Source: Chloroflexota bacterium (lineage in GTDB: Bacteria > Chloroflexota > Anaerolineae > Aggregatilineales > Aggregatilineaceae). Taken from it: DNA of 64,000 nt. Where the stretch lies: assembly GCA_012729765.1 (NCBI GenBank), contig JAAYCM010000098.1:1-64000 (forward strand), written 5' to 3'. The notes beneath the pieces are model-generated. The model was not told where the DNA came from. It made no database searches and saw only the letters and a list, made by a program, of their open reading frames with translations. Below, piece after piece: positions 1,166 through 55,660 of this stretch; position 1 is the first letter of the stretch; every line of letters begins with the position of its first letter. A program made the position numbers and the translations under genes.

Positions 1166-3634
1166 ATGTTGCTGGCACAAGGTCTGACAGGAGAGCTGGC
1201 CCTGGAGCGCCTGCTCGATCTGCTTCCGTTGATGGCCGTGACGGTAATCGGCGTCGCCCTACTAGAGATTGCAGTCTACCTCTTCTTTAAAAAAGTTCTG
1301 CGAAGCCGTTTTACACTGCCTTATACGCTGGTGGCGCCGGCGGCGCTCGCGCTGCTGCTCTTCACCGTCTACCCGTTCGTCTACAATATCCGGCTGGCGT
1401 TCTCAGACCTGCGTCTGAAAACGATGGCCTGCTATATCCCCAACACCGACGTGACCAACGCCGAGTGCTCGCTGGGACGCGCCGCGCCGGGAGCCGAGGT
1501 GAATATCCGGGTCAATGAATATCCGGTGCGCGCCGAGCCAAACGAAACCGCCGACGTGCTCTGGACGGTTGAGGAAGGCGACGAGGTCCGCGTCACGGGC
1601 CAAAGCTCGAAGATCAATAATTACGTCCGCTATGCCGGCAGCCCGGTCCATATCAACGAGGACGGCACGCTCTCCAACCGGGTGTGCGGGGTAGACATCA
1701 ACTGTAAGCGCACCTTCGACGAGTACAAAGCCAACGTGCTCGACGTGCAGGACGAGCGCGACTGGTGGCCGATTGAAGACGGCACCGGCCAGACGGGCTG
1801 GATTCCCAACCAGATTTTCTACATCACCGAGGATACTCAGGTGTTTGGCACCTCGACCGGCGACGAGGAGATCGTGACCGAAGTCTCCCAGGGGGACGAG
1901 GCGCGGCTGGTCCGGGCCGAGCGCACGACGTGGTATGAGCTTCAACTGGAAGGCGACCAGACCGGCTGGGTCCCGGCGGAGATGATCGACAGCCGCCAGT
2001 CGTTCTTTCCCGAAGCTGAGGCCGAGGTCTATGAAGAGATGACCGCCGGCAGCCCGGTCCTGGACACGCTCTCTGCCGAGCAGGAAGTCGGGCTGGTGCA
2101 GGCTGTGACGATGACGTGGTACCAGATCTTCGCCGACGAAGAAACCATCGGCTGGATCAATATCCCGGTTCAGAACATCAGCACAATCCAGACCTTTACC
2201 CTGCCGGCTGAGGCGGAAGTCTATGCCGAGCAGAACGCCGATACCGCCCCGGTCGCAACCGTGCCCGAAGGTGTTCAGGTCACACTGCTGCAAACGATGG
2301 TCGTCACCGATGAAGAAGAAGGCGTCGATGTGACGTGGCACCAGGTCCAGCTCGAAGACGAGACAACCGGCTGGCTGACGGGCATCACGCCGACCGACTT
2401 GTCTGAGGTCGAGGTGATGACGCTCGGCGACGAAACCACGCTCTACAGCGAAACCAGCGCCGAGAGCGACGTGATCGGCACGGCCCCTGCCGGGCAGCGC
2501 GTGACCGTGATCGAGCGCGACGACTCGAACGACATCACGTGGCGGCGTGTGCGGCTGGACGGTAACGAGATGGGCTGGGTGAATGTCGGCGGCGAAACGG
2601 CGACCAACTTCTCGATTGCCGAAGATACCGGGGTCTTTGCCGAGATCGGCGGGGCCGGCGGTGTGGTGGCCGAGCGGACCGAAGGCCAGCGCGTGACGCT
2701 GGTCAACGACGATATGCGGACCTTCACGCGCTATCAGGTGCGGCTGCGCGACGGCACGGTCGGCTGGGTGAACCAGCGCCCGCGCGAAGTCACGACCACG
2801 CAGCGCGACATCGTGCTCTACAGCCTGAACTATGGCTGGACGAACTTCAAGCGCGTGTTCGTGAAGACCAACAACCAGACCGGCGAGATCGAAGGCTGGG
2901 GCCGCCTGCTTCAGACGCAAAACTCGACCTTCCCGCGCCTGATGCGTACCACCGTCGCCTGGACCAGCCTCAACGTGCTCTTCCACCTGATCTTCGGGAT
3001 GATCCTGGCGCTGATGCTCAACCGACCCGGTCTGAAGCTGCGCGGCATCTACCGCGCGATCATCATCCTGCCCTGGGCGATCCCGCAGGTGATTATCGCG
3101 CTGGCCTGGAAGGGCGAATTCCACTACCAGTATGGCTTCGTTAACAACCTGCTGGTCGACTTCGGTCTGGATCGGATCAACTGGCTCTTCTCGCCCGGCC
3201 CGGCGTTTGCCGCCGTGACCTTCGTCAATATCTGGCTGGGCATCCCGTTCTATATGGTGACGCTGCTGGGCGGCCTGCAATCGATCGCGGGTGAATACTA
3301 CGAAGCGGCGGAGATCGACGGCGCGAACTCGTGGCAGCGCTTCCGGAACGTGACGGTCCCGCTGATCCGCCCGGTGGCCGTGCCAATTGTCACACTCGAC
3401 GTGATCTGGACCTTCAACAATTTCAATGTGATCTACCTGATCACCAAAGGCGAGCCAAACGAAAGCACCAATATCCTGGTCACTGCGCTGTATAACGCCG
3501 CGTTTGGCGAGAACGGCCAGTTCCAGCTTGGCTTTGCGGCGGCCTTCTCGCTGGTGATCTTCCTGGTGCTGTTCTTGTTTGCGAGCTTCTGGGTGACAAG
3601 CAGTGGCGCGCTGAAAGGAGTGTACGAATCATGA
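1166..3634 (+). CDS. MalF-like sugar ABC permease with about six SH3b repeats inserted in the external loop
   Basis: Inner-membrane subunit of a maltodextrin-type importer, 822 aa; ordinary MalF is about 300-515 aa. Start ATG has a GAGGAG Shine-Dalgarno 8 bases upstream. Two membrane segments come first (about residues 20-42 and 50-72). A long hydrophilic insertion follows (about 105-540), built of repeated units of 60-75 residues each ending in a GW(I/V/L) turn: TGQTGWIPNQ, GDQTGWVPAE, EETIGWINIP, DETTGWLTGI, GNEMGWVNVG and GTVGWVNQR. That is the bacterial SH3 (SH3b) pattern. The permease core resumes near residue 595, with the EAA loop (YYEAAEIDGANSWQRF, about 711) that docks the ATPase. 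The insertion occupies the place of the MalE-contacting P2 loop of E. coli MalF. The stop overlaps the next gene (ATGA). No ATPase gene is in the visible operon, so a shared MsmX/MalK-type ATPase is likely. Confidence 0.88.
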   Translation: MLLAQGLTGELALERLLDLLPLMAVTVIGVALLEIAVYLFFKKVLRSRFTLPYTLVAPAALALLLFTVYPFVYNIRLAFSDLRLKTMACYIPNTDVTNAECSLGRAAPGAEVNIRVNEYPVRAEPNETADVLWTVEEGDEVRVTGQSSKINNYVRYAGSPVHINEDGTLSNRVCGVDINCKRTFDEYKANVLDVQDERDWWPIEDGTGQTGWIPNQIFYITEDTQVFGTSTGDEEIVTEVSQGDEARLVRAERTTWYELQLEGDQTGWVPAEMIDSRQSFFPEAEAEVYEEMTAGSPVLDTLSAEQEVGLVQAVTMTWYQIFADEETIGWINIPVQNISTIQTFTLPAEAEVYAEQNADTAPVATVPEGVQVTLLQTMVVTDEEEGVDVTWHQVQLEDETTGWLTGITPTDLSEVEVMTLGDETTLYSETSAESDVIGTAPAGQRVTVIERDDSNDITWRRVRLDGNEMGWVNVGGETATNFSIAEDTGVFAEIGGAGGVVAERTEGQRVTLVNDDMRTFTRYQVRLRDGTVGWVNQRPREVTTTQRDIVLYSLNYGWTNFKRVFVKTNNQTGEIEGWGRLLQTQNSTFPRLMRTTVAWTSLNVLFHLIFGMILALMLNRPGLKLRGIYRAIIILPWAIPQVIIALAWKGEFHYQYGFVNNLLVDFGLDRINWLFSPGPAFAAVTFVNIWLGIPFYMVTLLGGLQSIAGEYYEAAEIDGANSWQRFRNVTVPLIRPVAVPIVTLDVIWTFNNFNVIYLITKGEPNESTNILVTALYNAAFGENGQFQLGFAAAFSLVIFLVLFLFASFWVTSSGALKGVYES

Positions 3635-26608: not shown

Positions 26609-27754
<1,146 letters not shown>

Positions 27755-47701: not shown

Positions 47702-48127
47702 TCAGGCTTCTGGCTGGTCGTGCTCGCGGATGCGCAGGAAGACCTCGATCACAACCAGGCTGAGCGCCAGGAAAAACGCGATCAGCGGGTTGAGCACGCG
47801 CGGAATCTGGAGCCAGGCGCACGCCACCACAAACAGCCCGATCCAGATGCTCTGGCGCAGGATCACGGCCCCCGATGGCGGCGGCGCGTCCTGGCTGGTG
47901 AAGCGCAGATTCAGAAAGCGCACGAAGGGCAGCACAGTGCCGGTCACGGCCAGGTAGAGCAGCACGAAGAACAGCCACCGGGGAAAGGCGGTTGGCAGGT
48001 AAGCCGTCACCAGGACCCACAGCCCGATCCACCCGGCCAGCGCCATCAGCGCGGCGGCGATCAGGACGCCAATGTGATCGGGTGTGGTGGTCGAATGCGG
48101 TTGGGTCGGGTCGGTCTGCTTGCTCAT
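47702..48127 (-). CDS. Small membrane protein, unknown function
   Basis: A 141-aa protein with about four hydrophobic segments (HIGVLIAAALMALAGWIGLW, LFFVLLYLAVTGTVLPFV, QSIWIGLFVVACAWLQI, LIAFFLALSLVVIEVFLRI) and short charged ends. The ATG at 48127 is preferred; the frame remains open to 48163. I recognise no family. It is the first gene of a short minus-strand run ending in tsaD. It may help assemble a membrane complex, but this is only suggested by size. Confidence 0.65.
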   Translation of the reverse strand: MSKQTDPTQPHSTTTPDHIGVLIAAALMALAGWIGLWVLVTAYLPTAFPRWLFFVLLYLAVTGTVLPFVRFLNLRFTSQDAPPPSGAVILRQSIWIGLFVVACAWLQIPRVLNPLIAFFLALSLVVIEVFLRIREHDQPEA

Positions 48128-48256
48128 GCGGGCAATTATAGCCACGCCGTCACCGGCCCACAATCCCCGCTACCGCCCACTGCGGCGATGGTTTAGAATG
48201 CCAGGGGATACGTGCAAAAGGCTAAATATTCTAACCCATTCCTAATTAATTCCTGT

Positions 48257-48286
48257 TTGACATTAGTAGCCCATTTGTTCTATGAT
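48257..48286 (+). promoter_or_regulatory. Strong sigma70-type promoter for the DUF5131 gene
   Basis: Perfect TTGACA (48257-48262), an 18-base spacer and TATGAT (48281-48286), in AT-rich DNA. The predicted transcript starts near 48293, about 34 nt before the ATG at 48327. Confidence 0.7.
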
Positions 48287-48326
48287 AGATTTCAGTATTC
48301 AATGTTGTGTTAAATGGTGACAAAGT

Positions 48327-49133
48327 ATGAACAAGCAGCGAAAAAATGCAGGTGGCCGAGGAATTGAATGGACTGATTGGACCTGGAATCCGACTGCGGG
48401 CTGCATGCATGGCTGCACCTGGAAAATGCCTGACGGCAGTATTGCCGAGTGCTATGCAAAAAAAATCGCTGAAGGGCTAGCTCGCGCTGCTTATCCCCAG
48501 GGATTCGAGCATCATTACTGGCGAGAGCATACTTTACAGGAACCGCTGAAAGAAAAGACTCCCAGCAAAATTTTTGTGGGTAGTATGGCCGATCTCTTTG
48601 GACACTGGACCCCTGCTGAACAGATCAGGCAAGTGCTCGATGTCATGCGTCAAGCACACTGGCATACCTTCCAGACTTTGAGTAAGTACCCGATCCGTTT
48701 GCCGGAATTTAACCCCTTCCCATCTAACGTGTGGGTTGGTGTCAGCCTGCCCGCTGGTCATCTCATGTCAGAAACGGGTGGTGCTCGTGCACTGAAGTCC
48801 TACTTAAAACAGATGACCAAGATTGAAGCCGGTATTCGGTTTATGAGCGTCGAACCGTTGTGGTTTGATGCGAGCCGGGTTTTTCAGGAGTGGCTAGAGA
48901 CAAACGAGAGCCTACCCTTTTAATGGATCATTATCGGAGCAGCGACAAATGGGCGTAAAGCTTATCAACCCGATCCGGCATGGGTAGAAAATCTAGTCGC
49001 TGTTATGGAGGAGCAAAAGATCCCCATCTTTTTCAAAGGGAATCTCGTCTGGCCTACATGGCGTGAGGAATTTCCAGCGAGCTTAGAACCAGTGATGCTT
49101 GAAACTCACTATATGCAGGAGATTACGGTGTAA
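48327..49133 (+). pseudogene. DUF5131 (Gp37/Gp68) radical-SAM-like protein interrupted by an in-frame TAA
   Basis: Full frame of 268 residues with one stop (TAA at 48921-48923) after residue 198. The upstream part has the family start EWTDWTWNPTAGC and a three-Cys motif C26-C30-C42 (GCMHGCTWKM, then ECYAKK), a SMADLFGHWTP segment, LTKYP-like LSKYPIRLPEF, WVGVSLP and RFMSVEPLW. In the same frame after the stop the sequence continues WIIIGAATNGRKAYQPDPAW, PIFFKGNLVW and ends at 49133, the conserved C-terminal part of this family. The gene is intact apart from that codon. Its 3' end overlaps the convergent tcmP stop. It could be a recent nonsense mutation, a sequencing error or read-through. Confidence 0.75.
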
Positions 49134-50376
49134 AAGAAACTATCTCCGGGTTTCTTAGCTCTGTATATTGGGCACGTTTTTGGCGTTTAAGCAGGCTCAT
49201 GGCGCTTCTAATTTCGTCATGATGGTATGTTTCGTTAACTAAACGTCTCAGAACCTCTCGATACTCGATTACTTCACCTCTGCATAACTCATAAATGTGG
49301 TCCGCTATGACGTCCTTCGACGGTCTTGCTGGAACATTTGGGACCAAACCCATATGGTCTCCAAAGCCAGGCATAACTTGTGGTAGAACTCCGCCGCTGC
49401 TTTCTTGAAACTTCTCATCTTTCCACTGAATTCTAAGATTGTGTTCCCGTAACTTAGCATCATCAAGAATTTCATTCATTGCAAGTCCCCCTGTTGGATC
49501 GTGAGTTGTCAAAAATAAGTAGAACATTGTTCTTTCCTTGTCAGGGAACTTTAACGGTACAAGCTTGATGGCTAAACTCTCATCGGTGCTTTGTAGACTC
49601 CGTATGTATTCTTGAACGAGCCTTGTTTCCATTTCATCAGGAGTGTCTAAATAATCTGTGGCAATATTTCTCCAATTTCTATCACCGTATAGTTCGTCGT
49701 AGTACTGAAGATGTAATCCATGCTCCTGAGTACCCCTTACGACTGAGCCTGTTTTCTTATGCAAATCTTGATAGGGGAAATTAATCATTACATCTGCACG
49801 ATCCTGACCGACAATACGAGCCACTACGTCTAACGGTATGCCAAGCGGACCATATGGATCCAGCAGGTAAAAAGACCAGGTATATGGGGCAGAAGTGAAC
49901 GTTAACAGGTCTGCGGCGAAATCACGATAGTCTCCACAAACCGTTGCTATTTCACCGCTTCTGAGTGTTGAAAAGTCTGAAGTTTCCCGGATCCTGTTTG
50001 CTAGGCCAGCCCACTCTAAAGTATCAAGCAAGTCTTGGTAAATGCTTTTATCTTTTTCAATCAGTATCGCAAAAACTTCCGGAGTAAACCCGGCGGTAGT
50101 GCGCGCCGACTCACTGACCTTTTCCAACTCACTGATCCCAATCAAAGGGGAACCCGGTACTATATCTCTTGTGTTCCGCCCAGCCGAATATCTTCCCTTG
50201 TGGGCAAAACAGTCAACATATACAAATCTGACCCTGAAAGATCCACCTCGATTACGTGCTTTTAGATAAGGTCCTCTAAGTCCATTGATAATTATATTTC
50301 CCCAACGTGTAAGATAGCTCTCCAAAATTTCATGCTTTACAATTGTCTGCGTATCGCGAGGAGATAAGTTAGCCAT
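49123..50376 (-). CDS. tcmP: Three-Cys-motif partner protein TcmP
   Basis: A 417-aa protein matching the TcmP family, which is typically encoded next to three-Cys-motif DUF5131 proteins, as here. The N-terminal half has a Rossmann methyltransferase-like fold: FVYVDCFAHKGRY at the glycine-loop position, AILIEKDKSIY (acidic strand end), VCGDYRD and FYLLDPYGPLG (motif IV-like D-P-Y-G). The C-terminal part (about 245-417) is helical with a winged-helix-like end. ATG at 50376 with a GAGAGA site. An open extension to 50763 is shadow. The gene is AT-richer than its flanks. Function of the pair is uncharacterised as far as I know. Confidence 0.82.
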   Translation of the reverse strand: MANLSPRDTQTIVKHEILESYLTRWGNIIINGLRGPYLKARNRGGSFRVRFVYVDCFAHKGRYSAGRNTRDIVPGSPLIGISELEKVSESARTTAGFTPEVFAILIEKDKSIYQDLLDTLEWAGLANRIRETSDFSTLRSGEIATVCGDYRDFAADLLTFTSAPYTWSFYLLDPYGPLGIPLDVVARIVGQDRADVMINFPYQDLHKKTGSVVRGTQEHGLHLQYYDELYGDRNWRNIATDYLDTPDEMETRLVQEYIRSLQSTDESLAIKLVPLKFPDKERTMFYLFLTTHDPTGGLAMNEILDDAKLREHNLRIQWKDEKFQESSGGVLPQVMPGFGDHMGLVPNVPARPSKDVIADHIYELCRGEVIEYREVLRRLVNETYHHDEIRSAMSLLKRQKRAQYTELRNPEIVSFTP

Positions 50377-50560
50377 TGATCTCTCTTTTCCAACCCATTC
50401 ATAGAAGTAGCTTTTTAATATTGTAGCTATTGTTGAAAATATGCAAATCAACGAGTCGTAGTTGACTGGCTCTGAAGGACAGTACATCGGTGAAGCAGTT
50501 CGTCTATGATTTGGTATAATAGCAAGGTTGCAGATCGAACGAACGACACGAGATAAAACG

Positions 50561-52456
<1,896 letters not shown>

Positions 52457-54490: not shown

Positions 54491-55660
54491 GTGGGTCGCT
54501 GGGAAAACAAGTACGTGATCGGCCTCACGGGGAATATCGCCACCGGCAAGAGCCTGGTACGCCGGATGCTGGAGCATCTGGGAGCATACACTATCGACGC
54601 CGACGGGCTGGCCCACCAGTCGATGGCACCGGGCGCTCCGGCTTACCAGCCGGTCATCAAGGCGTTTGGCGACTGGATTCTGGATGCTGAGGGGCGGATT
54701 GACCGGGGTAAGCTGGGTGCGGTCGCCTTTGCGCATCCCGACGCGCTGAACCGCCTGGAAGCGCTAACCCATCCTGTCGTCGGGCAGGCCATCGACACGC
54801 TGATTCAGCGCTCACGACACAAAGTGGTCGTGGTCGAGGCGATCAAGCTGCTGGAAGGGCATCTGGCCGGCCAGATGGATGCGATCTGGGTGGTGGACGC
54901 CGACGAGGCGCACCAGCTTGAGCGGCTCGCCAAGCGCGGGCTGTCGCAGGCCGAGGCGATCAAGCGCATCCGGGCGCAGAACCCGCAGGCCGAGAAGCTG
55001 GCCCAGGCGAACGTCGTGATCAAGAACAGCGGCAGCCCAGAAGATACCTGGGCGCAGGTGCGCAAAGCCTTGCAGGGGATTCAAGGCACGGCAGAAGCCG
55101 AAGCCGAGCAGGCGACGGTGCACCGCGTCCAGATGCAGGTGGGCAGCGCAGGCGCCGGTCAGCATGAGATCAAGGCGCTCGACATCGTGCGCGGGCTGCC
55201 GCGCAACGCCGATCAGATCGCGGGGCTGCTGCGCCAGGCGTCAGGCCGCGTGCTCACGCGTGAAAACGTGCTGATGCTGTTTGGGCAGAAGTCGTACATG
55301 ATGGCGATTGCCGATAACGAGCCGGTCGGGCTGGTCGGGTTCCTGGTCGAGAACCTGGTGACGCGTGTAGACGAGTTTTTCGTCAGCCCACAGGTGCCGA
55401 TGGCTCCCATTACGGCGGCGCTGGTAGACGCCATCGAGCGCGCCTCGAAGGAGCTGCAAAGCGAAGTCGGCTACATTTTTGTGCCGCAGGGCGCGGCCCC
55501 GGCGCTGCTCGACACGCTGAAGAAGCAGGGCTACGAGCGCCAGGAGCTTGACGATATTCGCGTCCCGGCCTGGCGCGAAGCCGTGCGCGAATCGCGCCCC
55601 GATGGCACGCTGATCATGGCAAAGAAGCTGCGGGCAGAGCGCGTGCTCAAGCCGCTTTAG
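54491..55660 (+). CDS. coaE: Dephospho-CoA kinase fused to a C-terminal GNAT-like domain
   Basis: A 389-aa two-domain protein. The N-terminal CoaE domain (about 1-195) adds phosphate to dephospho-CoA, the last step of CoA synthesis. Its P-loop is GLTGNIATGKS (about 11-21), with YTIDADGLAHQ and VVVVEAIKLLEGHLAGQMDAIW typical. The C-terminal 190 residues (about 196-389) resemble a GNAT acetyltransferase fold (MAIADNEPVGLVGFLVENLV, then a DEFFVSP strand and ALLDTLKKQGYERQE). Ordinary CoaE is about 200 aa. The acetyltransferase-like domain would use acetyl-CoA, so a product-sensing or coupled role is conceivable but unproven. GTG start with GGAGG 7 bases upstream. Confidence 0.88.
   Translation: MGRWENKYVIGLTGNIATGKSLVRRMLEHLGAYTIDADGLAHQSMAPGAPAYQPVIKAFGDWILDAEGRIDRGKLGAVAFAHPDALNRLEALTHPVVGQAIDTLIQRSRHKVVVVEAIKLLEGHLAGQMDAIWVVDADEAHQLERLAKRGLSQAEAIKRIRAQNPQAEKLAQANVVIKNSGSPEDTWAQVRKALQGIQGTAEAEAEQATVHRVQMQVGSAGAGQHEIKALDIVRGLPRNADQIAGLLRQASGRVLTRENVLMLFGQKSYMMAIADNEPVGLVGFLVENLVTRVDEFFVSPQVPMAPITAALVDAIERASKELQSEVGYIFVPQGAAPALLDTLKKQGYERQELDDIRVPAWREAVRESRPDGTLIMAKKLRAERVLKPL

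Follow-up and report, generated by a model that had tools for sequence, protein, structure and literature searches.

An AT-rich gene pair of Anaerolineae combines a conserved DUF5131 protein with an exchangeable TcmP partner in a tail-to-tail layout

Comparison of related genomes indicates, with high confidence, that the DUF5131-TcmP gene pair of Anaerolineae is built from a constant enzyme and an exchangeable partner. At fixed chromosomal loci the DUF5131 genes and the flanking genes are orthologous, with about 70-90 % protein identity, and the TcmP proteins encoded beside them belong to mutually unrelated types with 16-25 % identity. We found no earlier description of such an exchange of the tcmP slot at fixed loci, including in the open literature on PDC-M30 and PDC-M41, the entries under which the pair is listed by PADLOC. 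This widespread pair is catalogued as a defence candidate but has no mechanism assigned to it, and the exchange pattern provides a testable idea, namely that TcmP is under pressure to change and DUF5131 is the shared machinery. The window analyzed here is a stretch of 64,000 nucleotides from a 4.7 Mb assembly of a Chloroflexota bacterium of the class Anaerolineae (GCA_012729765.1, contig JAAYCM010000098.1), and it carries one such pair within a small island.

The island at 48190-50520 has a GC content of 44.8 %, compared with 65 % in the flanking 3 kb to its left and right and 65 % in the genome, which bears out the AT-rich stretch of about 2.3 kb noted in a preliminary description made from the sequence alone. 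Its AT-rich core covers about 48200-50520. Alignment to six genomes of the same family in which the site is empty (G002, G007, G008, G010, G013 and G014) placed the inserted segment at 48164..50551: on the left the alignment stops between 48142 and 48163, with one weak extension to 48177, and on the right it picks up again at 50552-50561. At these empty sites a small membrane protein gene adjoins the ABC-F gene, with about 140-400 bp between them. Both genes flank the pair in the window without being part of it. Of the 17 other family genomes, 16 have a clear orthologue, complete or partial, of the ABC-F gene on the right (50561..52456, + strand; 71-80 % identity), and the small membrane protein gene on the left (47702..48127, - strand) has matches in 16 of the 18 family genomes. 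Of the core genes named in the preliminary description, the ABC-F gene lies directly on the right and the tsaD-like gene is the third on the left, behind the small membrane protein gene and an Xaa-Pro-peptidase-like gene. The island ends just upstream of the TATAAT of the ABC-F gene (50515..50520, + strand), which was located by sequence comparison and is kept in the empty sites as TGGTATAAT.

Six family sites are empty, and in another family member, G015 (locus L168), a pair precedes the same ABC-F gene. Gain at this site beside a core gene is therefore the most likely history, the alternative being loss from the other family genomes. The GC content of the pair is below that of its flanks in every locus compared, and this recurring base composition together with the empty sites supports the earlier proposal of acquisition by transfer. 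In a search for transposon terminal repeats, the direct repeats near both island ends were all short and imperfect, such as 48229-48244 and 50388-50403 (14/16 positions), and are likely due to chance; no tRNA or RNA family was found at the island site.

The DUF5131 gene of the window (48327..49133, + strand) is interrupted. Its open reading frame covers 48327-48923 and ends at an in-frame TAA at codon 199 (48921..48923), after which the frame stays open up to a second TAA at 49131-49133. The read-through frame matches PF07505, the phage Gp37/Gp68 family, with 128.6 bits (gathering threshold 28.9; E 3.7e-37). The strong promoter reported upstream was readily found as a sigma-70-type TTGACA-18-TATGAT site (48257..48286, + strand; 11/12 positions), the best among eight promoter-like sites where 3.7 were expected by chance; it is a consensus match and not proof of use. 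The codons for the three Cys residues, C26-X3-C30-X11-C42 in the translation (CMHGCTWKMPDGSIAEC, 48402..48452, + strand), are invariant in the alignment of the subclass that shares this spacing. The three-Cys DUF5131 gene of the preliminary description is therefore present with its motif and its family, but it is not intact. In subclass relatives the gene is full-length and codon 199 encodes Glu or Gln within LPFEW/LQW, with GAA being one base off TAA. Because the frame beyond the stop is still open and conserved (20 nonsynonymous and 22 synonymous differing codons among 54, compared with L168), the stop would either have arisen by a recent nonsense mutation or be an error of the assembly. As it stands, the open reading frame encodes 198 aa, and 199 bp separate its end from the 3' end of tcmP, so the 11-bp overlap of 3' ends described earlier (49123..49133) holds for the read-through frame only. 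Since the nonsense codon cuts away the last quarter of DUF5131, the module of the window is probably inactive.

The tcmP gene (49123..50376, - strand), convergent as previously described, is intact and encodes 417 aa with an extra C-terminal domain. Its product matches TIGR04474 with 107.7 bits (cut-off 53; E 9.6e-31), so both proteins of the window pass curated family cut-offs. A promoter-like site at 50420..50447 (- strand) is weak (9/12 positions), and such sites are expected by chance. The protein carries motif I as YVDCFAHKG and motif IV as LDPYG, and it belongs to a TcmP type, t3, that it shares with L170, L182 and L202. When the window TcmP alone was used to scan genomes, no relatives were returned because TcmP diverges too fast; DUF5131 profiles served for the search of relatives in its place.

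The models of both proteins point to enzyme classes, with the fold scores giving class and not function. The intact DUF5131 of L168 was modelled by AlphaFold with a pLDDT of 89.9, and its eight best PDB matches were all radical SAM enzymes (best E 1.5e-4; TM only 0.33-0.48), with spore photoproduct lyase in the top six places besides lysine 2,3-aminomutase and RlmN. DUF5131 shares with these enzymes a three-Cys motif near the N-terminus, but differs from them in its sequence identity of about 10 %, in the distance of the match (TM 0.41-0.48 for spore photoproduct lyase) and in the Cys spacing. The classical radical-SAM signature is CX3CX2C, whereas the subclass of the window has an invariant CX3CX11C, the X11 of which aligns with the X2 of classical members such as CLHTCEYCYA; other aligned PF07505 members have CX3CX2C or CX6CX2C. 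The window DUF5131 also matched TIGR04471, radical SAM mobile pair protein A, but at 42 bits against a cut-off of 355 it is not a member. For the window TcmP (pLDDT 92.8), the top five Foldseek matches were RlmJ/DUF519 and the leading matches were all methyltransferases. The best of them was RlmJ with E 1.8e-6 and TM 0.54 by target, a distant match within the range of 0.46-0.55 by target for RlmJ. RlmJ is the 23S rRNA m6A2030 methyltransferase. The family alignment agrees with a class I SAM-dependent methyltransferase fold, with D173 invariant and P174 and G176 nearly so. However, TcmP is set apart from the RlmJ family by its extra C-terminal domain, by the absence of an RlmJ profile match and of a sequence match to the PDB, and by DPYG in the window and DPxG across the family in place of DPPY. 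The models thus support the radical-SAM-like and methyltransferase-like pair proposed in the preliminary description, suggesting a radical SAM fold for DUF5131 and pointing to an RlmJ-like methyltransferase fold for TcmP.

Among 101 genomes of the same order, TIGR04474 occurs in 40 and PF07505 in 44, largely the same genomes. The DUF5131 profile scan of 84,980 species yielded 77 loci, and the CX3CX11C subclass is nearly confined to metagenome-assembled genomes (MAGs) of Chloroflexota with a few Planctomycetota, the closest named relatives by the window DUF5131 being Anaerolineae MAGs. The two genes are arranged tail to tail in the window and in all 45 CX3CX11C relatives with a detectable TcmP (45/45), with 3' ends lying between -59 (overlap) and +39 bp apart. 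The subclass loci without TcmP comprise three at contig ends (L210, L213 and L214), the decayed L215, and three that lack it (L195, L217 and L218). Outside the subclass the order varies between co-directional TcmP-DUF5131, co-directional DUF5131-TcmP and convergent. We did not find a prior description of the constant tail-to-tail layout of the subclass. It may also occur in a phage: in Synechococcus phage Ssp-JY39 (L245, 2501-4119) TcmP is convergent with the next gene with a 46-bp overlap. The pair is intact in most relatives; one of its genes is broken or split in L180, L204, L219, L215 and G068, so decay of a single member is not rare, although some of these broken genes may be MAG sequencing errors.

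The TcmPs of 43 loci were divided into seven types at a 35 % identity threshold, and all types belong to TIGR04474 (46/46 TcmPs of the set match at E 0.001). Mapped on the DUF5131 tree with its 43 leaves, the TcmP types require 17 changes, against a least possible number of 6 and a mean of 19.3 for shuffled labels, and the starred branches of the tree alone force 11 changes for the largest TcmP type. DUF5131 identity and TcmP identity show a rho of 0.016 over all 903 pairs, but 0.58 within type. The exchange can be followed directly at one locus represented by L182, L184 and L191, where the main flanking blocks are collinear with 84-93 % DNA identity and the DUF5131 proteins are 88-93 % identical, and the TcmPs are of types t3, t2 and t1, respectively, with 16-20 % identity. 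Homology is lost in the last DUF5131 codons and regained beside the tcmP start. A second locus is shared by 16 genomes; over its 92 pairs of different type, identity by global alignment is 80 % for DUF5131, 69-89 % for the flanking proteins and 27 % for TcmP. Divergence at this locus follows that of the flanks with a rho of 0.36-0.59 for DUF5131 and a weaker 0.24-0.33 for TcmP, and this weak but kept correlation means that not every TcmP difference is recent. Two of its genomes, G099 and G068, have lost tcmP and retain a damaged DUF5131. The third case is the window itself compared with G015, in which DUF5131 is kept (71-76 % identity) and TcmP is only 16 % identical.

One breakpoint of the exchange falls in the last DUF5131 codons, after a WREEFP motif, and the other a short distance upstream of the tcmP start. 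Because of the position of the former, each tcmP exchange also swaps the C-terminal tail of DUF5131, and the tail beyond WREEFP follows the TcmP type, with 2 residues in t4, 1 in t5 and usually 5 in t2. Relics of earlier TcmPs beside the present ones were not found at E 1e-3, and the replacement is therefore clean. Replacement of the whole pair was rejected as the cause, since DUF5131 shows the same level of identity as the flanking genes whatever the TcmP type, and assembly chimeras were rejected because numerous independent MAGs, collinear in the left and the right flank, show the pattern. Pairs of the same type show a slightly higher similarity from about codon 140 of DUF5131 onwards, too weak a signal to claim homologous recombination within this gene. 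At L205 (4568-7506), two TcmP genes in tandem, of types t6 and t5, lie opposite one DUF5131 gene, a single case that is possibly an intermediate of a gain-then-loss route of exchange.

Combining these results, the reading that we favour, tentatively and at slightly less than even odds, is a transferable nucleic-acid-modification module in which DUF5131 is constant, TcmP is exchangeable, and the likely use is anti-phage or anti-mobile-element. A nucleic acid is probably the target of the pair. In this proposal, DUF5131 would be the constant arm, acting as a radical-SAM-like iron-sulfur enzyme, and TcmP with its RlmJ-like N-methyltransferase fold would be the exchangeable arm, probably setting the nucleic acid or the sequence acted on. 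The tail-to-tail order puts tcmP between the conserved DUF5131 and the next chromosomal gene, and because of this position recombination could exchange tcmP as part of one cassette that includes the variable C-terminal tail of DUF5131, with the enzyme and the locus staying in place. Anti-phage or anti-mobile-element defence would then select for repeated change of target recognition. A constant enzyme, an exchangeable partner, a fixed layout and mobility are all consistent with pressure on a recognition arm to change, and defence is a frequent setting of such pressure. Type I restriction-modification offers a parallel, in which the recognition gene hsdS is swapped at a fixed locus and the catalytic subunits are constant; unlike that system, the pair has no nuclease or helicase and no homology to it, and the recognition role of TcmP is a putative one. 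It is possible, though doubtful, that the pair represents a new immunity architecture, with a constant radical-SAM enzyme, a target set by an exchangeable methyltransferase-fold partner in a tail-to-tail cassette, and CX3CX11C as the mark of the subclass. If so, radical-SAM-plus-methyltransferase chemistry with modular recognition would be added to known defence. With near-identical DUF5131 proteins and three unrelated TcmPs, L182, L184 and L191 form a natural set for asking whether TcmP sets the target. Several observations weigh against the favoured reading: CX3CX11C departs from the radical-SAM signature, the fold matches are distant and the gene neighbours are mostly ordinary. The exchange could also reflect neutral gene replacement or selection unrelated to defence. 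Since many phages carry DUF5131 and only two phage records matched the TcmP probe used, DUF5131 may also have some role alone.

The anti-phage role suggested in the preliminary description is plausible, and the chances that defence is the purpose of the pair are about even. The preliminary description regarded the pair as one of undescribed function, and indeed no phage assay of it was found in the open literature (preprints and subscription papers were outside the scope), but the pair is already listed among the PADLOC phage-defence candidates PDC-M30 and PDC-M41. Within the same scope, no mention of DUF5131 by name was found in the open PMC literature, and TcmP in this sense appears there in tables only. 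The window DUF5131 matches PDC-M41B with 132.6 bits (3.6e-39) and PDC-M30B with 127.6 bits (1.4e-37), and the window TcmP matches PDC-M30A weakly but significantly (25 bits, 1.8e-6); the A and B genes are adjacent. Like these guilt-by-embedding candidates, the pair consists of two genes, a TcmP-like A and a DUF5131-like B, and the other TcmPs of the group match M41A/M30A strongly; the pair of the window differs in being tail to tail, in lying outside a defence island and in having its DUF5131 broken by the in-frame TAA. PDC-M30 has been reported in P. aeruginosa by two papers, in one of which it was predicted in 32 of 100 strains, 68.8 % of them phage-resistant, a correlation only (PMC10855318). 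A TcmP gene of Sinorhizobium has been listed alongside the Hna defence gene.

The association with defence genes in relatives, which had been suggested as a check, was weak. Among 125 distinct Anaerolineae proteins encoded within three genes of the pairs, at most about nine match PADLOC at 1e-10 as a raw count; these matches represent 25 PADLOC families with one member each, many of them redundant, and Pfam assigned the neighbours mostly to ordinary metabolic and regulatory genes. Mobile elements are a further setting. More than 400 plasmid records carry DUF5131, plasmid pairs adjoin integrases and transposases, and in one case, on a Rhodococcus plasmid, the pair has an integrase as a neighbour, together with DUF262 and an EcoRI-like methyltransferase. 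The Pseudomonas plasmids pP9Me1 and pCAR1 (L249 and L250) each carry a site-specific integrase, DUF5131 and TcmP, all co-directional. Between the two plasmids these proteins are 92 %, 94 % and 78 % identical, respectively, TcmP being the fastest-changing here too.

Four other explanations were considered. It is unlikely that the pair serves DNA repair or hypermodification, with a DUF5131 like spore photoproduct lyase acting on DNA bases of the cell or of phages and TcmP methylating the product, for genome maintenance or restriction evasion. The six leading DUF5131 folds would suit this explanation, as would the frequency of DUF5131 in phages (131 records) and the convergent TcmP of the Synechococcus phage. 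However, the CX3CX2C of spore photoproduct lyase is absent here, repair does not foresee an exchange of partners, and TcmP was undetected in most phage copies with the probe used, which matched two phage records only. Modification of the cell's own RNA, with TcmP as an RlmJ-type rRNA adenine methyltransferase and DUF5131 as its partner protecting against ribosome-targeting compounds or stress, is improbable as well. RlmJ provides the best TcmP folds and RlmN is among the DUF5131 matches, but own rRNA targets are conserved and would not predict a repeated swap to unrelated methyltransferase types; moreover, TcmP has DPxG and not the DPPY of RlmJ, and the ABC-F neighbour is accidental, given that relatives have an empty site here and that the neighbours differ at other loci.

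There is only a small chance that the pair is a neutral passenger, a decaying accessory without a present role in the lineage of the window. The in-frame stop, a GC content still far from that of the host and several broken copies in relatives speak for such decay, but tcmP is unbroken, conservation of DUF5131 extends before and after a stop that may be an assembly error, and most relatives keep both genes intact. A toxin-antitoxin-like addiction pair, in which a harmful protein is neutralised by its partner and addiction dynamics underlie the exchange, would account for the tight pairing, small size, mobility and overlapping 3' ends, but is very unlikely: an antitoxin should be lost only together with its toxin, yet each gene also occurs in broken form beside an apparently intact partner (the window for DUF5131, L180 and L204 for tcmP, MAG errors being possible), L215/G099 and G068 have a damaged DUF5131 without tcmP, both proteins look like enzymes, and the genes do not form one operon.

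Elsewhere in the window, the gene at 26612-27754 (- strand) encodes a radical SAM protein whose C-terminal part has a helix-hairpin-helix motif (PF04055 and PF12836). It resembles radical SAM enzymes of DNA modification or repair, a similar theme unrelated to the island. At 1166-3631 (+ strand), a single frame of 822 aa joins bacterial SH3 domains to an ABC transporter permease domain that follows them, and an open reading frame of 389 aa at 54491-55660 (+ strand) appears, by eye from the translation, to have a CoaE-like N-terminal part fused to another domain.
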